A stretch of 64,000 nucleotides of DNA, from positions 1,358,589 to 1,422,588 of the forward strand of contig NZ_VKKY01000001.1 in NCBI RefSeq assembly GCF_008271695.1, given 5' to 3'. The stretch is from Rufibacter hautae. GTDB lineage: Bacteria > Bacteroidota > Bacteroidia > Cytophagales > Hymenobacteraceae. The notes beneath the pieces are model-generated. The model was not told the DNA's origin, searched no databases, and saw only the letters and a program-made list of their open reading frames with translations. Within the stretch, counting starts at the first letter, position 1. The number at the start of each line of letters is the position of its first letter. The translations under genes and the position numbers were made by a program. Shown here one piece after another: positions 42,965 to 51,947 of this stretch.

Positions 42965-44077
42965 CTAGTTGGCGGGCCCAGCTGCTGTCTCTACTGTTCC
43001 ATAAATGGCGTTTAACAATCCGTTGGAGGGGGAATCCTGGGCCAGCTGCCAGAACATGATGCCGCCTAATTTATGGGTTTTCACGTAATTCACCTTCAGT
43101 TTCATGGAACGGGGGTCATCATAGGTCACAAACAGCCCTTGTGTCTCATTGTAGAGATAAGGCGCCTGGGCTTGCTCATCCCAATGGTAAGTGTAGCCTT
43201 GCTGCGCCGAGAGAAGCCTGGGAAAATCTTTGAAGGCTTCGGCGGTTTTGAATTTGCCCATCTGGTAAAGTCCGTTGTTCACATTGGGCACCTGTTCCCA
43301 GATTCGACCGTAAAACGCGGCCCCGATGATGACTTTCTCCGCGGGAACGCCTTTCTTCAGGAGAGACTGCACGGCGTTGTCGGTGGACTCTGGCTGCTGC
43401 GGGGTGGAATACAGGGCGGTGTGGTGACCCGTTTTAGCAGAACCTCCGTTCACCAAATCATAGGTCATCAGATTCACGTAATCCACTTTTTTCATCACCT
43501 TCTTCCAGTCAATCGCTTCGTCCAGGAACTTCTGGAATCCGCCGGCGGCGAAACTGATGATGGCCTTTTTGCCCAGGCTGCGGCGTAGTTCCTGCACCAA
43601 TCCAGTGAAGTTGTCTTTGTCCTCCGGCGAAAATTTGTGCCCGGGAAACCCTTCTACCACCGGATATTCCCAGTCCAGGTCAATGCCATCGGCCCCGAAG
43701 TACCCGTTCATCTTTTTGACAGAGGCTGCAAACTCTTTCCGGCCGGCGGAGGTGGAGAACACATCTGAACAGGTTTCGCACCCGCCCCATCCGCCTAAAG
43801 ACACCAGTACTTTCAACTGGGGGTTCTTCTGTTTGAGCAGCACCATCTTCTGGAGCACGGCAGAATCTGCGGGGTTCCTGAGCTTCAGTTTGTTTCCGTC
43901 CAGCAGCCCGAAGGAGTAGATGATGTGGGTTAGTTGCCGGGCATCATAGGTATCCAGTTGCGCGGCGTCTCCGGCAAAATACGCGATGACCGCCGGGCGC
44001 GGCGGACTTGCTTTCTGCGCAGTGGCCGTGAGTGACAGGAATGCGAGCAGCAGAAAGATTCTGGTAGATTTCATCAT
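42965..44077 (-). CDS. GH18 chitinase-like enzyme, intact catalytic motif
   Basis: A 370-residue exported protein (signal peptide ending TATA). The GH18 catalytic signature DGIDLDWEYP puts the acid at Glu137, with Asp130, Asp133 and Asp135. The second signature VLVSLGGWGGCE and the end GGIMFWQLAQDSP (substrate-stacking Trp) are also present. The enzyme cleaves beta-1,4 bonds beside GlcNAc. It lacks a sorting tail or lipobox, so it probably works in the periplasm on oligosaccharides imported by SusC. It is the last gene of the locus. Two dispersed palindromes and a hairpin lie upstream. Confidence 0.92.
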   Translation of the reverse strand: MMKSTRIFLLLAFLSLTATAQKASPPRPAVIAYFAGDAAQLDTYDARQLTHIIYSFGLLDGNKLKLRNPADSAVLQKMVLLKQKNPQLKVLVSLGGWGGCETCSDVFSTSAGRKEFAASVKKMNGYFGADGIDLDWEYPVVEGFPGHKFSPEDKDNFTGLVQELRRSLGKKAIISFAAGGFQKFLDEAIDWKKVMKKVDYVNLMTYDLVNGGSAKTGHHTALYSTPQQPESTDNAVQSLLKKGVPAEKVIIGAAFYGRIWEQVPNVNNGLYQMGKFKTAEAFKDFPRLLSAQQGYTYHWDEQAQAPYLYNETQGLFVTYDDPRSMKLKVNYVKTHKLGGIMFWQLAQDSPSNGLLNAIYGTVETAAGPAN

Positions 44078-44189: not shown

Positions 44190-44240
44190 CAGTTCTCCAG
44201 CGGAGCGCATCTTCCAGAAAGTAGGGCCGGGCTTTTAAGC

Positions 44241-44292
44241 GTACTCCTGCTTTAGGGCCGTTTTCATAAAAACAGCCTCAAAGCAGGAGTAC
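44241..44292. terminator. Hairpin with palindrome core, after the GH18-like lipoprotein gene
   Basis: A perfect 13-bp outer stem GTACTCCTGCTTT / AAAGCAGGAGTAC encloses GGGCCGTTTTCATAAAAACAGCC, a dispersed-palindrome core. It lies 30 bp after the stop codon of the GH18-like lipoprotein gene and may terminate or attenuate before the last GH18 gene. Confidence 0.6.
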
Positions 44293-44321
44293 GGGGTATG
44301 CCAGCAATACTGGGGCTTCTT

Positions 44322-45671
44322 CTAGTTACCCAAGGCAGTGTTGGCGGCCTTCAGCAGTGACTTGGATTGGTCAGGGGTATCGCTTTCCACGCTCCACATC
44401 ATGAGGCCACCCAAGCCTTGGTCTATCACCAACTGGGCTTTCTGCTGAATGATGGGGTGCCCGTCATAGTAGATGCCGTCATCCACGGCAAGCATGTTTT
44501 TGGTGTGCGCCATGGGGTCTTTCAATAAGATGTCTCTGAAGCTTTCATAGGTGGCGTATTTCCACAGATTACCCCACCCCACCTGCGTGCCGTCTTTGGG
44601 CATGTTGTAATGCAAACCGAACGCTGGGAAGCCCAGCACAATCTTCTCTTTCGGCAACCCGAAGTTCACCCAGGTATTCACCAGGTCGGTCGCGCCCCAG
44701 TAAGGAGAGTGGGCGGTTGGCGCCAAGTCTTCATAGCGGTACGGCTGAATGTTCACCCAGTCAATCTCCGGAACCTTGGCAATGGCACTCAGCACGCCGG
44801 TGGTCCAGCCGCCGGGCACCGAGGCCGTGTAGAAGAACTTACCATTGGGCCCGGGAGGCAGCGCGGCCGGAATGGCCTTGAAAAACTGCTCTATTTTGGA
44901 AACCGGCTCTAAAACGCCTTCGGAGGTGTTGTTAAGGTACACGTTGATGCCGTCAAAACCGTTGTTGGAGGCAAACTTCATGATGGTGGCAATGGCCGTG
45001 GCCTGCTTGGCGGGGTCTTTCACCACATTGAAGAAGCCGTAATCGGCGTACATGCCGCCGCCGTTCAAGGTCACCATGTTGCCAGTTACGTCCAGCAGCA
45101 CGTACACGCCCGCGTTATGCGCCGCCTTGATGATGAGCGGAATGTTCAGGTTCTCCAGCGTGGTATCTACCAATGAGGCCTGGCCAGCCACTTCGCCTAC
45201 CACCGCCGAGGAAATCACCAGGTGGGTCAGGTTGGCGAAGTTCACGTCATTGATGGAGCCGTTCTGCGTGAGGAAACCCACCATTTTCTTGTTGTAGGTT
45301 TTCGGCACGAAAGGCTTGATCACAATCACATCGGCCTCTCTGGAGTTGGTGACGCCGTTGCGGGTGGCTTCAAACTTGATGGTGTAGTCTTTGGCCTCGG
45401 GGAAAAGGTATTTGAACCGAAGGCCGGTGCCTACCTCTACCCCATCCACAAACCATTTGAAGGTAGCGTCCTGGGCGGGTGACACCTGCAAGTCAATGAT
45501 GAGCGAATCTGAGATATCAGTAGTATAGGTGTTGGCCGTGGACCACCCGAAAATGCGGGGCACCGCGGTGCTTTCAAAAACCGGGTTTTCGTCGTCTTCC
45601 ACCTCACAGTTGGTTAAGAAGAACAGGCAGAGAAAACAGCCTAGCAGGAGATTTATATAATTTTTCATCAT
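44322..45671 (-). CDS. Surface lipoprotein with a degenerate GH18 domain (predicted glycan binder)
   Basis: A 449-residue lipoprotein (lipobox LTNCEVE, Cys22). After an N-terminal Ig/PKD-like domain (about residues 35-120) comes a GH18-type TIM barrel starting KMVGFLTQNG and ending GLGGLMMWSVESD. The catalytic signature reads DGINVYLN at 240-247: positions expected to be Asp, Asp and Glu are Asn243, Tyr245 and Asn247. The enzyme is therefore almost certainly inactive, while the fold and aromatic residues remain. Its place directly after susD suggests a surface glycan-binding protein, like the SusE/F position in other loci (inference). The gap to susD is 30 bp. Confidence 0.85.
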   Translation of the reverse strand: MMKNYINLLLGCFLCLFFLTNCEVEDDENPVFESTAVPRIFGWSTANTYTTDISDSLIIDLQVSPAQDATFKWFVDGVEVGTGLRFKYLFPEAKDYTIKFEATRNGVTNSREADVIVIKPFVPKTYNKKMVGFLTQNGSINDVNFANLTHLVISSAVVGEVAGQASLVDTTLENLNIPLIIKAAHNAGVYVLLDVTGNMVTLNGGGMYADYGFFNVVKDPAKQATAIATIMKFASNNGFDGINVYLNNTSEGVLEPVSKIEQFFKAIPAALPPGPNGKFFYTASVPGGWTTGVLSAIAKVPEIDWVNIQPYRYEDLAPTAHSPYWGATDLVNTWVNFGLPKEKIVLGFPAFGLHYNMPKDGTQVGWGNLWKYATYESFRDILLKDPMAHTKNMLAVDDGIYYDGHPIIQQKAQLVIDQGLGGLMMWSVESDTPDQSKSLLKAANTALGN

Positions 45672-45701: not shown

Positions 45702-47297
45702 TTATTTATCCCACCAAACCCGGGCGGTCCAGACATCGCCGCCGGTGATTCTGGCAGCGGCTTCTTTCACGTTGGCTTCGTTCAACAGATACTCGTTCAC
45801 CGGGTACTGCATTCTTCTGGGCACCTGACCACCCGATTGGTTTACACCAGGGTCGCGGTTGCGGTAGGTCAGGTTAGGCAGACCGGTTCTTCTCCAGTTA
45901 GCGTATCCTTCCTGCGGGTTCAAGGCAAAATTGATCCAGAGTTGGGTGTTGATTTGCTCCAGTTCCTGGCCGGGCAGCAAGGGGTTGGCGGCTTTAAAAG
46001 CATTGATGGTCGCCTGCGGTACTTCGGGGGCTTTGTACACCGTCATTTGCTTCACGCCGGCTTCCAGCGCCTTGTTGAAATGGTCTTGCGCCGTTCCGCC
46101 AGAGTTCCAGCCTCTCACAGCTGCCTCTGCTCTCCATAATTCCACCTCGGCGTAGCTCATGATAATATAGGGCGCATCAATGGCCGATATGTATTTGGAT
46201 GGCTGCAGGACCTGTAAGATGCGGGGAACCTCAGTGGCCTGGCCGTTTACATCTACAGTGATGGCCGGGCCGGTTCCTTCATAGGAGAAAGTACTGGGTG
46301 GAAGCGACATGGCGGTATAGCTCCCCAACTTGCCGCGCACCTGGTCGGTGATTTCGGTCCGGTTTTCGTCTTTCAGGTAAGAAGCGCCAAAGATTCTCAG
46401 TCTTGGGTCTGAGGTATCCTCCAGGTATTTGGCAAAGGTGTTCACCATTCTAAAGGCGCTCTCAGTAGGCGATACCGCCATCAGAACATAAGAAAAACCA
46501 TTTCCCCCGAACACATCGCCCCCGAAAGGCACGTTGATGTGCTGCATCACGGCCATGTCACTGTTGCTTTCCATCACGCCGGCGGCAATGGCTGCCTCGG
46601 CTTCTTCTCTGGCTTTGGCGGGTTCCACTTTCACCAGGCGCATGGCCAACCGCAGGCGTAATGAGTTCCCGAACTTTCTCCATTTGTTCACATCGCCGTT
46701 AAAATAGAAGTCCTGGGTCACCGGGTCTCCGGCGGGAGTCAAGGCCTTGGTGGCGGCATCCAGTTCTTTGAAGAAGTCATAGTATATGTCTTTCTGGGCA
46801 TCATACTTAGGCGTTAAGACTCCTTCATGGTACCCTTTCCCGGCTTCAAAGTAAGGGAGATCGCCGTACAGGTCCGTTAACCGGGAGAAGATGTACACCT
46901 TCATGATCCGGGAAACGGCATTTATGTTCACCTGGGCCGGGTCACCGGTGGTGCGGATCACCATATCAGAGATGTTCTTCACTTCCCGGGGGTACTGGGT
47001 ATCCCAGAGGGCGCTCATGTACCCGTCGTTTTTCTGGCCTTTTCCGCCAAACTCGGTGGTAGCGTATTCGCCCGTCCACTGCTGCATCCAGTCGCCGGCG
47101 TAGATAAAGCCGTTCCGCCACTGCTCATACATCCCACCCGAGAGCTGCAACTGAATGGTAGGCAGCATGAGGTTAGGGTCCATTTGCGTGGACTTGGTAG
47201 GGTTCTGGTTCATCTCCTCAAAATTGTCGCAACTGCCCAAAGACAGGAGAAGCAAACCGCACAGCAAAAGCCTTATTTTCTTATAGGTTGATTTCAT
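45702..47297 (-). CDS. SusD/RagB family glycan-binding lipoprotein
   Basis: A 531-residue lipoprotein (lipobox LSLGSCDNFEE). It has the SusD-type start NQNPTKSTQMDPN, the region MYEQWRNGFIYAGDWMQQWTG, and the ending YPVNEYLLNEANVKEAAARI characteristic of the SusD_2 subtype. SusD proteins sit as a lid on SusC and capture oligosaccharides. The gene follows susC by 24 bp and is cotranscribed with it. The glycan is presumably GlcNAc-based because GH18-type genes flank the pair. Confidence 0.94.
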   Translation of the reverse strand: MKSTYKKIRLLLCGLLLLSLGSCDNFEEMNQNPTKSTQMDPNLMLPTIQLQLSGGMYEQWRNGFIYAGDWMQQWTGEYATTEFGGKGQKNDGYMSALWDTQYPREVKNISDMVIRTTGDPAQVNINAVSRIMKVYIFSRLTDLYGDLPYFEAGKGYHEGVLTPKYDAQKDIYYDFFKELDAATKALTPAGDPVTQDFYFNGDVNKWRKFGNSLRLRLAMRLVKVEPAKAREEAEAAIAAGVMESNSDMAVMQHINVPFGGDVFGGNGFSYVLMAVSPTESAFRMVNTFAKYLEDTSDPRLRIFGASYLKDENRTEITDQVRGKLGSYTAMSLPPSTFSYEGTGPAITVDVNGQATEVPRILQVLQPSKYISAIDAPYIIMSYAEVELWRAEAAVRGWNSGGTAQDHFNKALEAGVKQMTVYKAPEVPQATINAFKAANPLLPGQELEQINTQLWINFALNPQEGYANWRRTGLPNLTYRNRDPGVNQSGGQVPRRMQYPVNEYLLNEANVKEAAARITGGDVWTARVWWDK

Positions 47298-47321: not shown

Positions 47322-50300
47322 CTAGAATCTGATGGATAAATTAGCCCCAAAGCTTCTTCTGGACGGGATAGAACCGTACTCCAAGCCTTGCCCGTTGCCG
47401 TTGTTGTAGCTGGACTCTGGGTCAATGTTAGGCAGGTTGCTGTACAGGATAAACAGGTTTCTTCCCACAAAAGAGATAGAGGCCGCCTGAATAGGCAATC
47501 TGCCGAACAAGGTTTTAGGAAGGGTGTACCCGATGGTCAATTCCCGGAGTTTGGCATAGGTCGCATCATAGATAAACGGCTCCGGTGAGTTAGACAGGAA
47601 CTGAGCCCAGTAACTCTGCGGATTCACAAAAGTGGTGTTGGGCTGATAGTTAGGAGCCTCCGCGGTGCCTACGTTCACTACCCCTTTGCCTACGTAACCG
47701 CCGGTGGGCGTCCAAGCAGCGGGACTTGCGCCAGCGGCTAATCTGGCTTCTTCTGAGGCATACCAGCCCGCACGGCCTTCCAGGGTATTTTCTGAGGTAC
47801 CATTGGTATGGGCAATGGCACTGCTCATGGAGTATATATCGGCCCCTGATTTAATGTCTACCAGAGCACTCAGTCTGAAACCTTTATAGGTCAGCACATT
47901 AGTGATCCCCGAAGTCCAGTCATAGGTTCCTTTGCCTAATACCTCCTGCTCGGTACCGAACACGGGCAAACCGGCGGCATTGTGCACCACATTTCCGTTC
48001 GGGTCGCGCATCAGTTTCTTTCCTACAATAGTCCCGAAAGTCTGCCCTTCCTGGGCCATGATGGCGGCCCCGGCCCAACGGGCATTGGCCAGGGTGTACT
48101 CTTTTACCTGCTCATGCAGTTTCACCACCTGGTTCACGTTGCGGGCATAGTTTACCATCACATCCCAAGAGAAAGCAGGGGTAGAAACCACCCCGCCTTT
48201 CAGCATCAGTTCCACGCCTTTGTTCGTGATTTCCCCGGCATTGATGATAGCGGTGTTGTACCCACTGGTAGCCGGGATGATCAAAGGAAGGATCTGATCG
48301 GTGGTTTTCTTGCTGTAGTAGGTTAAATCCAGTTGCACTCTGTTCTCCAGGAACCGGAGATCGGTCCCGAATTCATAAGTGAAGGTGCGGGTGGGTTTCA
48401 GCTCCAGGTTAGGAACGCTGGTATTGGAGATCTCGCCCAGCGGTTTGCCTAAGAGGGAGAAGTTCTTCAAACCGTAGGTTAAGCTTAACTGGTAAGGATC
48501 TGTGTCACCACCCACTTGGGCCGCGGAAGCCCGCAGTTTCCCGAAGGAAAGAATAGGGCTTCTATCCATTAGGTTCGTGAACACGAAACTTCCGGAAACC
48601 GATGGGTAGAAGTAGGAGTTATTGCCTTTGCTCAAGGTAGAGGACCAGTCGTTCCGGGCGGTCACATCAATGAAATAGGTGTCTTTGTAACCGGTTTGGA
48701 CGGTTCCGTACAACGAGTTGATCTGTTTCCGGAACAAGCCATAGTCGTTGCTCTGAGTTGTGAAGTTGGTGATGGCCTGGATGCCTTCCAGCACGATGCC
48801 AGAACCAGTGCTCATCTGGTTTTCGGCGCGGCGGTGCATGATGTTACCCCCCGCAAACGCCGTCACATAGAAGTCATCGGTGAACTGTTTATCAAACTTC
48901 AGGAGCGCCTCGTAGTTTTTCTCTGCCACGTGGTTGGATTGCTCCTGCAGGGCACCGGTTTCCCAGAGCGGGGTTCCTTTCGGCGAGAAGTTGGTGTAGC
49001 GGAAATTATAGAAATCGGTACCGCCCCGCAGCTGCAGCCCCAGCCAGCTGGTGAAATCATAGTTCATTTGCAGATAACCAATCACCCGGTTGCGTCTGGA
49101 GTCATTGGACATCTCATTGGTAGACCAGTAAGGGTTGATGCGGTAAGTGTTCCCGTTCCAATCCTGGTAGCGGCCGAACTCATCTTTGTAGCCTTCAGCA
49201 AGCCAGCGTTGGTCAAAGTTAGGGGCAATCCCGATGATGGCCAGACCCACGTTGTTGGGGTTGTCTGACAAAGCCGGTCTATTATCTACTTTTTCAGTGA
49301 TGTAGTTCACCTTTCCGTTGATGGTTATTTTGGACCCCAACTTCATGGTGCTGTTGATGAGGAAGGTGTTGCGGGCCATGCCCGTCTTGGGCACGATGTC
49401 TTTGTTGTGCATGTCAGAAACGGAGACCCGCACCGAGGCATTTTCATTTCCGCCGGTGAAAGCCAGCGTATTGGTGAAGGTGGACCCCGTCCGGAAGAAG
49501 CTCAGGATATTGTCGTTGACCAAAGCATAGGGCTTGGTTTCCCCGTTGTAGATCTGCAGGCTCAGGTTTGGATCCAACTGAGGGCCCCACGCCGATTGAG
49601 TATTGTTGGCATTGTTCTCCAGGGGCAGGATGCCGTCCCGGCCCTGTCCGTACACCTTCTGGTAGTCATCAAACCTAGATAATACCCTTTCAGCGGTATA
49701 ATTGCCGGTATACTCTACGCCTATTCCTTTTTGGTTAGCCCCCGTTTTGGTAGTGATCATGATGACGCCGTTGGAAGCCCGTGAGCCATACAAGGCTGCC
49801 GCAGCCCCGCCCTTCAACACCGATACAGATTCAATATCGTCTGGATTAAGGCTGGATAATCCGTCACCCAGGTCATAACCGCCCCACTGCCCGGCACCAC
49901 CGGCGGTGGTGTTGTCCATGGGTACGCCGTCAATGATGTACAAGGGTTGGTTGTTGCCGCTCAGTTCTGAGTTTCCCCTGATGATGACTCTGGAAGACCC
50001 CGATGGCCCGGCGGTGGGAGTAGAGATGTCCACCCCGGCCACTTTGCCCGAGAGGGAGTTGATGACGTTGATTTCTTTGGCGGTAGCCAGTTCGCTGCCT
50101 CCTACCTGCGCAATGGAGTACCCAAGAGCCTTCGCCTCTCTTTTTATCCCCAAGGCCGTCACCACTACTTCAGACAGAGCCGTGACATCTGGCACCAACG
50201 TAACGGTGATATTGGCTTGGCTGCCCACTATCACCTCCTGCGGAATATACCCGATAAAGGAAAACACCAGCACACTGCCCGGTGCGGCCGGTAGGCTGAA

Positions 50301-50501
50301 TCGGCCACTGGCATCGGTGGCGGTGGCGGTAGAGGTCCCTTTTAGCAGGACCGTAGCCCCCGGAATAGGGGAGTTATCTTCGGAAGACACCAACTGGCCA
50401 GTGATGACGTTTGTTTGTGCCTCCGCCCGATAAAAGACAACAGTCAGCATCATAAGAAGGACTGTTATACATTTCTTAGGAAAAGTAAACGTTTCATTCA
50501 T
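47322..50501 (-). CDS. SusC/RagA family TonB-linked outer membrane protein
   Basis: A 1059-residue protein. A signal peptide is followed by a carboxypeptidase-like domain (NVITGQLVSSEDNSPIPGA), the SusC signature SEVVVTALGIKREAKALGYS, a plug domain (NSLSGKVAGVDISTP, ALYGSRASNGVIMITTKTG), then a 22-strand-type barrel ending SIRF with a terminal Phe. It imports bound oligosaccharides across the outer membrane using TonB energy. It is the second gene of the locus in transcription order, 213 bp after the T9SS-tailed GH18 gene, so it may have its own promoter. Confidence 0.95.
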   Translation of the reverse strand: MNETFTFPKKCITVLLMMLTVVFYRAEAQTNVITGQLVSSEDNSPIPGATVLLKGTSTATATDASGRFSLPAAPGSVLVFSFIGYIPQEVIVGSQANITVTLVPDVTALSEVVVTALGIKREAKALGYSIAQVGGSELATAKEINVINSLSGKVAGVDISTPTAGPSGSSRVIIRGNSELSGNNQPLYIIDGVPMDNTTAGGAGQWGGYDLGDGLSSLNPDDIESVSVLKGGAAAALYGSRASNGVIMITTKTGANQKGIGVEYTGNYTAERVLSRFDDYQKVYGQGRDGILPLENNANNTQSAWGPQLDPNLSLQIYNGETKPYALVNDNILSFFRTGSTFTNTLAFTGGNENASVRVSVSDMHNKDIVPKTGMARNTFLINSTMKLGSKITINGKVNYITEKVDNRPALSDNPNNVGLAIIGIAPNFDQRWLAEGYKDEFGRYQDWNGNTYRINPYWSTNEMSNDSRRNRVIGYLQMNYDFTSWLGLQLRGGTDFYNFRYTNFSPKGTPLWETGALQEQSNHVAEKNYEALLKFDKQFTDDFYVTAFAGGNIMHRRAENQMSTGSGIVLEGIQAITNFTTQSNDYGLFRKQINSLYGTVQTGYKDTYFIDVTARNDWSSTLSKGNNSYFYPSVSGSFVFTNLMDRSPILSFGKLRASAAQVGGDTDPYQLSLTYGLKNFSLLGKPLGEISNTSVPNLELKPTRTFTYEFGTDLRFLENRVQLDLTYYSKKTTDQILPLIIPATSGYNTAIINAGEITNKGVELMLKGGVVSTPAFSWDVMVNYARNVNQVVKLHEQVKEYTLANARWAGAAIMAQEGQTFGTIVGKKLMRDPNGNVVHNAAGLPVFGTEQEVLGKGTYDWTSGITNVLTYKGFRLSALVDIKSGADIYSMSSAIAHTNGTSENTLEGRAGWYASEEARLAAGASPAAWTPTGGYVGKGVVNVGTAEAPNYQPNTTFVNPQSYWAQFLSNSPEPFIYDATYAKLRELTIGYTLPKTLFGRLPIQAASISFVGRNLFILYSNLPNIDPESSYNNGNGQGLEYGSIPSRRSFGANLSIRF

Positions 50502-50714: not shown

Positions 50715-51947
50715 TTATTCTACCAAGTACTTGTTTGAATACATCAGGTTATCTGCCTTTACCTGAATAAGATACATGCCCTGAGAAAGCCTGGGAAGCT
50801 CTACCCTGCTCTGCCGCTGCTTATTCTTGAAGGTCTTGTCATACACCTTCACGCCCTTCATGTCCCTGATGTCAATCTTCACTTTGTTTGTAGCCGCGGG
50901 AAAAGCCAGGTACCCAATGGCGGGCTGTTTTGTAGGGTTTGGGTATAAATGCACCCGAATCGGTTCTGTGCCCTGCTGGGTTGAACCGGTGACCTTCTTC
51001 AACGCCTGATGAATGGTACTGAGCAAGGAATAGCTACCGGTAGCATCCTGCGCCAGTTGCCAGATCATGATTCCGCCGTACTGCTGCTCTGCTACGTATT
51101 CTGCTTTGGCCCTGATGGTAGGGATGCCGTTGTAATAGATGGTGTTTCCTACCTGATCCAGGTTTTCTGAACCCGGGTAGCGCTTGATGATTTCGCCAAA
51201 GCCTATGCCTTCGTTGAAATCTGCCCCGAAACCATAGCCATAGAAAGGAACTCCCAAAACGGCTTTCTCTTTCGGGAGCCCACGGCCCACCCAATGATCA
51301 AGACACGCCTTGGCAAACTCAAAGGAAGAATGCTGCCCCGGACGATTGGGCGCCCAAGGTCCGGTTTCGTCATAGGCCATGATGTTGATAAAATCAAAAT
51401 ACTGGAAGGTGTCACTGGACACGGCATCGCCGCCGTTGGTATGCGCCAACGCCGCCGTCACCAATTTGCCCTGTGGCTTGAGGGCGGCGGAAAGATCTGC
51501 AATGAACTTACCGTAGTCACTGTTGATGGAAGCCCCTTCCAGGTCAACATCTATTCCGTCTAAATTATGTGCGGTGAGGTAGGCCGCGATCTTACGCACA
51601 AAATCTGCCCGCTTGGCATCACTGATCAAGTCAAAGTAAACTGCATACAGAGTAGGGTTGGAGGAAATCAACCCGCCCCCTATGGATACCAGTACTTTCA
51701 CCTGCTGGGCATGTGCCAACTGGATCAAGGTGTTGTTGGCCGGCGTGAAGCTCAGATTACCGGCGGCATCTGTGTTCTCAAAGGCAATATTGATGTGGGT
51801 TAGTTTGTCATAGGCGATGCTTCTGGCCATGGCATTATAGTCCAACCAATTAGGCAGGTACGCCACCACTTTGTTTTGTGCCTTCACCTGCCACGCCAAA
51901 AGAAAGAAAAAGACAAACAGCCTCAATGCTTTAGGTAAATTTTCCAT
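50715..51947 (-). CDS. GH18 chitinase-like enzyme with T9SS type A sorting domain
   Basis: A 410-residue exported enzyme (signal peptide ending VKAQ). The GH18 signature DGIDVDLEG gives the catalytic acid Glu137 with Asp130, Asp133 and Asp135. The stretch VLVSIGGGLISSN and the end GGIMIWQLAQDATG are also typical. The last ~80 residues form a T9SS C-terminal domain: VHLYPNPTKQP, KIDIRDMKGVKVYD, LSQGMYLIQVKADN. The protein should therefore cross the outer membrane by the Por system and be released or anchored at the surface. It makes the first cut in GlcNAc polymer for the SusCD pair downstream. A GTAGC-TAAA-GCTAC hairpin lies in its leader. Confidence 0.92.
   Translation of the reverse strand: MENLPKALRLFVFFFLLAWQVKAQNKVVAYLPNWLDYNAMARSIAYDKLTHINIAFENTDAAGNLSFTPANNTLIQLAHAQQVKVLVSIGGGLISSNPTLYAVYFDLISDAKRADFVRKIAAYLTAHNLDGIDVDLEGASINSDYGKFIADLSAALKPQGKLVTAALAHTNGGDAVSSDTFQYFDFINIMAYDETGPWAPNRPGQHSSFEFAKACLDHWVGRGLPKEKAVLGVPFYGYGFGADFNEGIGFGEIIKRYPGSENLDQVGNTIYYNGIPTIRAKAEYVAEQQYGGIMIWQLAQDATGSYSLLSTIHQALKKVTGSTQQGTEPIRVHLYPNPTKQPAIGYLAFPAATNKVKIDIRDMKGVKVYDKTFKNKQRQSRVELPRLSQGMYLIQVKADNLMYSNKYLVE

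Follow-up and report, generated by a model that had tools for sequence, protein, structure and literature searches.

A predicted lipoprotein with a GH18 barrel that has lost its catalytic residues lies beside susC and susD in Rufibacter hautae and may be a surface glycan-binding protein

Introduction

The surface glycan-binding proteins (SGBPs) known from SusCD loci have beta-sandwich or Ig-type binding domains. Chi-lectins, which include YKL-40, YKL-39, SPS-40 and the plant protein RobpsCRA, keep the GH18 fold, lack the catalytic Glu and bind chitin fragments, and they are known from animals and plants.

In the levan and dextran utilisomes of Bacteroides thetaiotaomicron, the four outer-membrane parts described in the available text are SusC, SusD, a surface glycoside hydrolase and an SGBP (PMC7618045). 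The gpdC-D-G-E-F operon of Capnocytophaga canimorsus encodes a SusC, a SusD, an endo-beta-N-acetylglucosaminidase with the motif FDGFDIDWE and then presumed binding lipoproteins; the accessible part of that paper reports that all Gpd parts co-purify with GpdC and that the endo-beta-N-acetylglucosaminidase is active (PMC3128124). Flavobacterium johnsoniae ChiB is a SusCD-linked GH18 that is predicted to be a lipoprotein and is active on chito-oligosaccharides, and the available text of its description mentions no dead GH18 receptor (PMC5127042). An engineered inactive GH18 endoglycosidase of Bacteroides, the BT1285 mutant, bound a high-mannose glycoprotein with a KD of 3.5 nM in the text available from that study (PMC11180146), so the GH18 fold can serve as a lectin. 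Our searches of the open full-text literature found no description of a natural dead GH18 that serves as a SusD-linked receptor.

Here we describe a GH18 homologue from Rufibacter hautae, which we call the dead GH18, that has lost its catalytic residues and lies directly after susD. We refer to the whole stretch of DNA that was analysed, 64,000 nucleotides, as the window. Like the SGBPs of SusCD loci (SusE/F and the SGBP-B type), the dead GH18 is encoded by a predicted lipoprotein gene after susD, has an Ig/PKD-like N-terminal domain and is presumed to be non-catalytic. Unlike them, it has a whole GH18 barrel as its distal domain. With the chi-lectins it shares a GH18 fold in which the catalytic Glu is lost, and chi-lectins are among its sequence and structure matches, but those are secreted animal and plant proteins whereas the dead GH18 is a predicted bacterial lipoprotein tied to a nutrient importer. 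The nearest solved relatives by profile are F. johnsoniae ChiB (6xyz, E 3.6e-30) and 3co4 (8.6e-30), both bacterial; none of the best 60 of 123 PDB matches, from which these come, covers the PKD_3-GH18 span. ChiB is an active enzyme, whereas the dead GH18 is without the catalytic residues. The Gpd complex is similar in having SusC, SusD, an enzyme with a GH18 motif and then presumed binders, but GpdE and GpdF, as far as the available text describes them, resemble lectin and galactose-binding folds rather than GH18, and the target is an N-glycan. In the utilisomes the SGBP and the hydrolase are proteins of different kinds. Most of the cassettes considered here encode all four parts (SusC, SusD, a GH18 and the dead GH18), a gene set that fits the four-part utilisome, and the presumed binder is therefore a homologue of the hydrolase. 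Chi-lectins in animals and plants and SGBPs in SusCD loci were known; what is new is a GH18-barrel SGBP, as we read it, in SusCD cassettes.

Results

The locus in Rufibacter hautae

All of the genes discussed here are on the minus strand. The order of transcription is the susC homologue (OMP_RagA_SusC, 47322-50501, 1059 aa), then the susD homologue (SusD-like_2 / SusD-like, 45702-47297, 531 aa) and then the dead GH18 gene (44322-45671, an ORF of 449 aa plus the stop). A preliminary description of this locus stated that the dead GH18 directly follows susD and that two intact GH18s are in the same locus, and both statements hold. The susD gene ends at 45702 and the dead GH18 starts at 45671, a gap of 30 nt, and the intact GH18s flank the cassette at 42965-44077 (370 aa, signature DGIDLDWE) and 50715-51947 (410 aa, signature DGIDVDLE). 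The whole genome gives no GH18 match besides these three. There are also three GH20 matches in the genome, one of them about 15 kb beyond the end of the window.

The upstream intact GH18 (50715-51947) has a type IX secretion sorting tail (Por_Secre_tail), and so one active GH18 probably leaves the cell by a route other than the lipoprotein one.

A strong terminator-like hairpin (z -7.6) is located 3' of the dead GH18 gene, at 44240-44293 on the minus strand, with no clear U run in the window. The same long, near-perfect hairpin follows the dead GH18 of R. latericius (stretch L010, 8379-8430; z -7.8), where a short U run comes after it. This suggests a transcript that would stop after susC, susD and the dead GH18, with the intact GH18 further downstream transcribed on its own. 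A pattern search for TAnnTTTG-type promoters in the 300 nt upstream of five genes of the locus found none.

The dead GH18 protein

The protein starts with a signal containing Cys22, followed by a PKD_3 domain at residues 43-102 (Pfam E 3.6e-7, above the cut-off), which is the Ig/PKD-like N-terminal domain of the preliminary description, and a Glyco_hydro_18 barrel at residues 130-431 (E 3.5e-23, above the cut-off). Residues 54-143 also align with the SGBP-B chain 6e57, with an E of 0.0099 for the whole chain. Both the profile and the TIM barrel of a predicted structure (model pLDDT 62) place the protein in the GH18 family. However, the signature of GH18 enzymes, DxxDxDxE with the catalytic Glu, is here DGINVYLN (residues 240-247). 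We read FDGINVYLN from the translated ORF as D240, N243, Y245 and N247, so the catalytic Glu and two Asp are replaced by N247, N243 and Y245, with the numbering as earlier claimed. The beta6 Asp, which the earlier account leaves out, is gone too, with Y311 and R312 in place of the Tyr-Asp pair, while the beta8 Trp (W426) is retained. We rejected a sequencing error as the source of the signature because the R. latericius copy (L010) has the same residues and the same synteny at 96% identity.

A lipobox had also been reported, and it is present in a relaxed form. Cys22, in FLTNC-EVEDDE, is invariant in the alignment of all 18 members of the clade described below, but an Asn stands before it, so we take the lipobox to be loose rather than textbook. 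The acidic stretch EVEDDE comes directly after Cys22. It resembles the lipoprotein export signals that the available text of one study reports for this phylum, K-(D/E)2, SDDDD and SDDFE (PMC5080379), which would probably put the dead GH18 on the cell surface. The acidic stretch and the SusCD context together appear to fit a surface glycan receptor.

Relatives and their distribution

We found 18 full-length members of the dead GH18 clade, including the one in the window, in three Bacteroidia families, and all 18 have both PKD_3 and GH18. The window's own genome (G000) is part of every genome count here. In a set of 59 related genomes, the full-length protein is found only in G000 and G003 (R. 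latericius), two out of 16 seen from the genus, and the same two are the only ones with it in an order sample of 390 genomes. An even sample of the class (395 genomes) added two full-length relatives, in G413 (39%) and G356 (32%). All other matches in the class and order samples fall on the barrel, in whole or in part; of these, the ones that we read further have an intact motif, L017 excepted.

For family- and phylum-level searches we used a four-row profile (A1). In G413's family, 2 of 101 genomes have members and a third genome matched only through an intact GH18. In G356's family there are 14 proteins in 13 of 251 genomes. Across a phylum sample of 395 genomes, A1 matched G000, G356, L059 (SusD-linked and of its own kind) and L060 (an intact GH18), and no second member turned up among 179 genomes of L059's family. 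Because the large genome searches scored no more than a few candidates in each genome, these prevalences are lower bounds. The clade is rare yet spread across at least three families of class Bacteroidia.

Catalytic columns and number of losses

Our comparison has 52 rows: the 18 clade members, L059 and 33 intact GH18s. L017 (which has an internal stop), the R. latericius copies of both intact GH18s of the window and duplicate loci were left out. The catalytic Glu is present in 0/18 clade members, where its position is Thr in 13, Asn in 2, Asp in 2 and Ala in 1. D3 is Met in 12, Tyr in 5 and Leu in 1; D2 is Asp in 14 and Asn in 4; every one of the 18 has Asp at D1; and at the beta6 position none has Asp, while 12 of the 18 have Glu. 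The intact rows retain D1, D2, D3, the Glu and the beta6 Asp throughout (Glu 33/33, beta6 Asp 33/33), although "33/33" describes rows recruited by similarity and not a random sample, because 14 "other" rows were chosen as the ORF with the most overlap and a loose D/N-G-x-D/N pattern. Residue 248, just after the lost Glu, is Asp in 14 of the 18. With Asp248 and the beta6 Glu, the largest subfamily is therefore less stripped than the window protein, in which 247 and 248 are Asn, D3 is Tyr and the beta6 Asp is Arg. Judged by their residues, no other member has lost as much of the catalytic set as the window protein and its R. latericius copy.

With the catalytic columns excluded, the 18 rows form one clade in the 52-row tree (support 100/98), and the same clade has 100/98 again in a tree without two long-branch rows (window 42965 and L016). 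The simplest reading of these trees is one loss for the 18 rows. Since the 18 members come from three families and form one clade, the conversion looks ancestral rather than local. The preliminary description had a hydrolase converted to a binder; the loss of catalysis is supported, but the conversion would have taken place not at this locus but in a forebear common to this and at least two further families of Bacteroidia.

L059 has the signature D-G-I-D-I-N-Y-Q, in which the Glu has become Gln and D3 has become Asn, while the beta6 Asp is kept; its gene also comes after susC-susD. We considered it as an independent second loss. It falls outside the 18-row clade in the best trees, but this placement is not decisive, since forcing it inside is not rejected (p-AU 0.191), and one loss or two both fit. 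L065 (6041-7405) has the same protein as L059, SusD-linked and PKD/GH18-like with DGIDINYQ, and thus another style of inactivation. By eye, the short contig that carries it also has a transposase-like ORF.

Selection

Compared with its R. latericius copy, the dead GH18 of the window has a dN/dS (NG86) of 0.033. This is close to SusD (0.035), SusC (0.044) and the alpha/beta-hydrolase gene next door (0.041), and lower than the two intact GH18s (0.072 and 0.086). The parts of the protein have similar values (PKD 0.029, barrel 0.033). In two f60 pairs of relatives the dead protein has a dN/dS of 0.035 and 0.043. By these values the gene is not decaying. The sequences give good support for a protein that has lost the hydrolase machinery and has been kept by strong selection.

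Gene neighbourhoods of the relatives

A susC-susD cassette is present in 17 of the 18 members, so the gene sits beside susCD as SGBP genes do; the exception is L056, with no susCD pair beside the dead copy. The dead copy comes directly after susD in six (the window, L010, L043, L045, L057 and L058), and in 11 a single motif-bearing GH18 separates the two. Motif-bearing GH18s are found in 16 of the 18 stretches and are absent from L043 (19 kb) and L056. In L049 the ORF of the partner GH18 is short (276 aa), with the motif present and the beta8 region missing.

We scanned 13 chosen neighbour proteins of the relatives for domains. GH20 is found beside the dead GH18 in L043, L045, L052 and L057, a GH2 with an exo-beta-D-glucosaminidase Ig domain in L043 and L045, and NagA, above the cut-off, in L058. 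L057 also has a NagP-like MFS protein, which scores 361 bits against a cut-off of 625 and passes the cut-off of the wider gluP subfamily. These neighbours fit chitin or chitosan oligosaccharides better than N-glycans. Both chitooligosaccharides and N-glycans had been put forward for binding tests, and it is the chitin-type glycans that the neighbours of the relatives favor.

In L043 (8993-15455), the dead GH18 cassette has no intact GH18 within 19 kb and is followed by GH20 and the exo-glucosaminidase-like GH2, as if it were feeding on oligosaccharides made elsewhere. Separately, there are look-alike membrane proteins near the dead GH18 in L052 (5192-6397), L053 (7962-9155) and L055 (10431-11618). 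The one in L055 matches HGSNAT_cat (heparan-alpha-glucosaminide N-acetyltransferase; Pfam 4.4e-7), and those in L052 and L053 are alike by eye.

Fold and old substrate cleft

The AlphaFold2 model was built on an alignment of six rows and is of modest quality (pLDDT 62.4, pTM 0.64, several loops below 50). Overlay of this model on GH18 structures agrees with the family assignment: the barrel matches 5y29 (VIA Z 27.9, rmsd 3.2, 297 aligned) and the chi-lectins SPS-40 (2pi6_A; Z 27.0, rmsd 3.2, 288 aligned) and BRP39 (5xep_E; Z 26.8, rmsd 2.7, 266 aligned). Foldseek TM-scores are about 0.5 by query length. As modelled, the barrel has the GH18 fold.

Conserved aromatics particular to the clade are found beside the old cleft, in the loops of beta3 and beta7. 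An insert in the beta3 loop has residue 208, which is Tyr in 17 members and His in one; its column is a gap in 33/33 intact rows. Trp at 205 is found in 14 of the 18, not including the window protein. The beta7-loop insert has a Trp (W366) in 14 of the 18, and its column 369 is a gap in 32/33 intact rows. Y375 is Tyr in all 18 clade rows and in 4/33 intact rows. The beta8 Trp is kept in 14 of the 18 and is Tyr in the other 4.

The loops of the substrate face are weakly more conserved than the rest in subsets of the clade (p = 0.083 with 14 rows, 0.015 with 11 rows), while over all 18 rows the face and the rest do not differ (p = 0.40). In the intact partners the same test is stronger (p = 0.0013), with 11 partner rows, a set that excludes L049 and the further GH18 rows from L057 and L058. 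We do not use face conservation as proof of binding, as the test is weak.

Discussion

Because the presumed binder stands in SusCD cassettes and is a homologue of the hydrolase, we read the dead GH18 as an SGBP made from a GH18 chitinase, probably for chito-oligosaccharides, and we put the probability of this at roughly 60%. That a hydrolase became a surface binding protein was the suggestion of the preliminary description. The catalytic loss and the strong selection in it stand (no Glu in 18 members of one clade, dN/dS 0.033), and the binding we infer. In our proposed mechanism, the lipid anchor at Cys22 and the acidic stretch would carry the protein to the outer face of the outer membrane, and the PKD_3 domain would space the barrel off the membrane. 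The old substrate face of the barrel, with new aromatic loops and without the catalytic Glu and Asp, would then grip chito-oligosaccharides uncut, or alternatively a related beta-GlcNAc glycan. Together with SusC, SusD and, in most relatives, a neighbouring intact GH18, it may capture and hold chains for cutting and import. We also consider, tentatively and at a little under even odds, that these SusCD-linked GH18 pseudoenzymes are a conserved bacterial counterpart of the animal chi-lectins, in which the catalytic loss is ancient and, paired on the importer, the dead copy holds the chain that a live GH18 homologue cuts.

Several other explanations have to be weighed against an SGBP for chito-oligosaccharides. 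The dead GH18 could bind something else (a beta-glucan, peptide, N-glycan or protein) at a site other than that of the chitinase, with the barrel as a scaffold. The weak conservation of the substrate face, the four members without the beta8 Trp and a neighbour in L044 that weakly matches a beta-glucanase family (NCBIfam 5.9e-8, well below the cut-off) are in line with this, but the neighbours of the relatives point to GlcNAc glycans, most members keep the beta8 Trp and the new aromatics lie beside the old cleft, and we consider it unlikely. Alternatively, the protein could be a pseudoenzyme partner that binds little sugar itself and attaches to SusC/SusD or to the active GH18, so as to organise or regulate the complex. 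We would expect this still less: the usual company of susCD (17/18) and of a motif-bearing GH18 (16/18) agrees with it, as does the similar constraint on PKD and barrel, yet L043 and L056 have no intact GH18 beside the dead copy, and the new aromatics in the cleft loops look like a sugar platform.

Whether the protein is still an enzyme, by a moved acid or altered chemistry, depends on the acids that are left. The preliminary description had raised a catalytic Glu elsewhere in the barrel; the original Glu column is lost in all 18 members, while position 429, after the beta8 Trp, is acidic in all 18 (Glu 4, Asp 14; E429 in the window protein), against Asp in 2/33 intact rows. The barrel columns with Asp or Glu in at least 15 of the 18 are 168 (15), 240 (18), 429 (18) and 431 (18); the intact rows that extend to 240 and 431 have Asp there too, and 429 is the clade's own. 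Some relatives could also use the Asp at 248 (14/18) or at 247 (2/18), and the beta6 Asp has become Glu in 12/18. However, in the window protein the 247, 248, D3 and beta6 positions are Asn, Asn, Tyr and Arg. The acid at 429 need not be catalytic, because it is Asp in two otherwise intact GH18s and Gly in L059. Retained catalysis thus seems improbable to us. Decay of a chitinase gene without function would account for the lost catalytic residues, but we reject it as next to incredible given the dN/dS of 0.033, the kept gene order and the 18 members in three families that form one clade.

If the dead GH18 is an SGBP, it would be a case in environmental bacteria where the path from an enzyme to a presumed nutrient receptor can be traced, with active relatives still adjoining. 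It is also a warning that counting chitinases in SusCD loci by their GH18 annotation can give too many.
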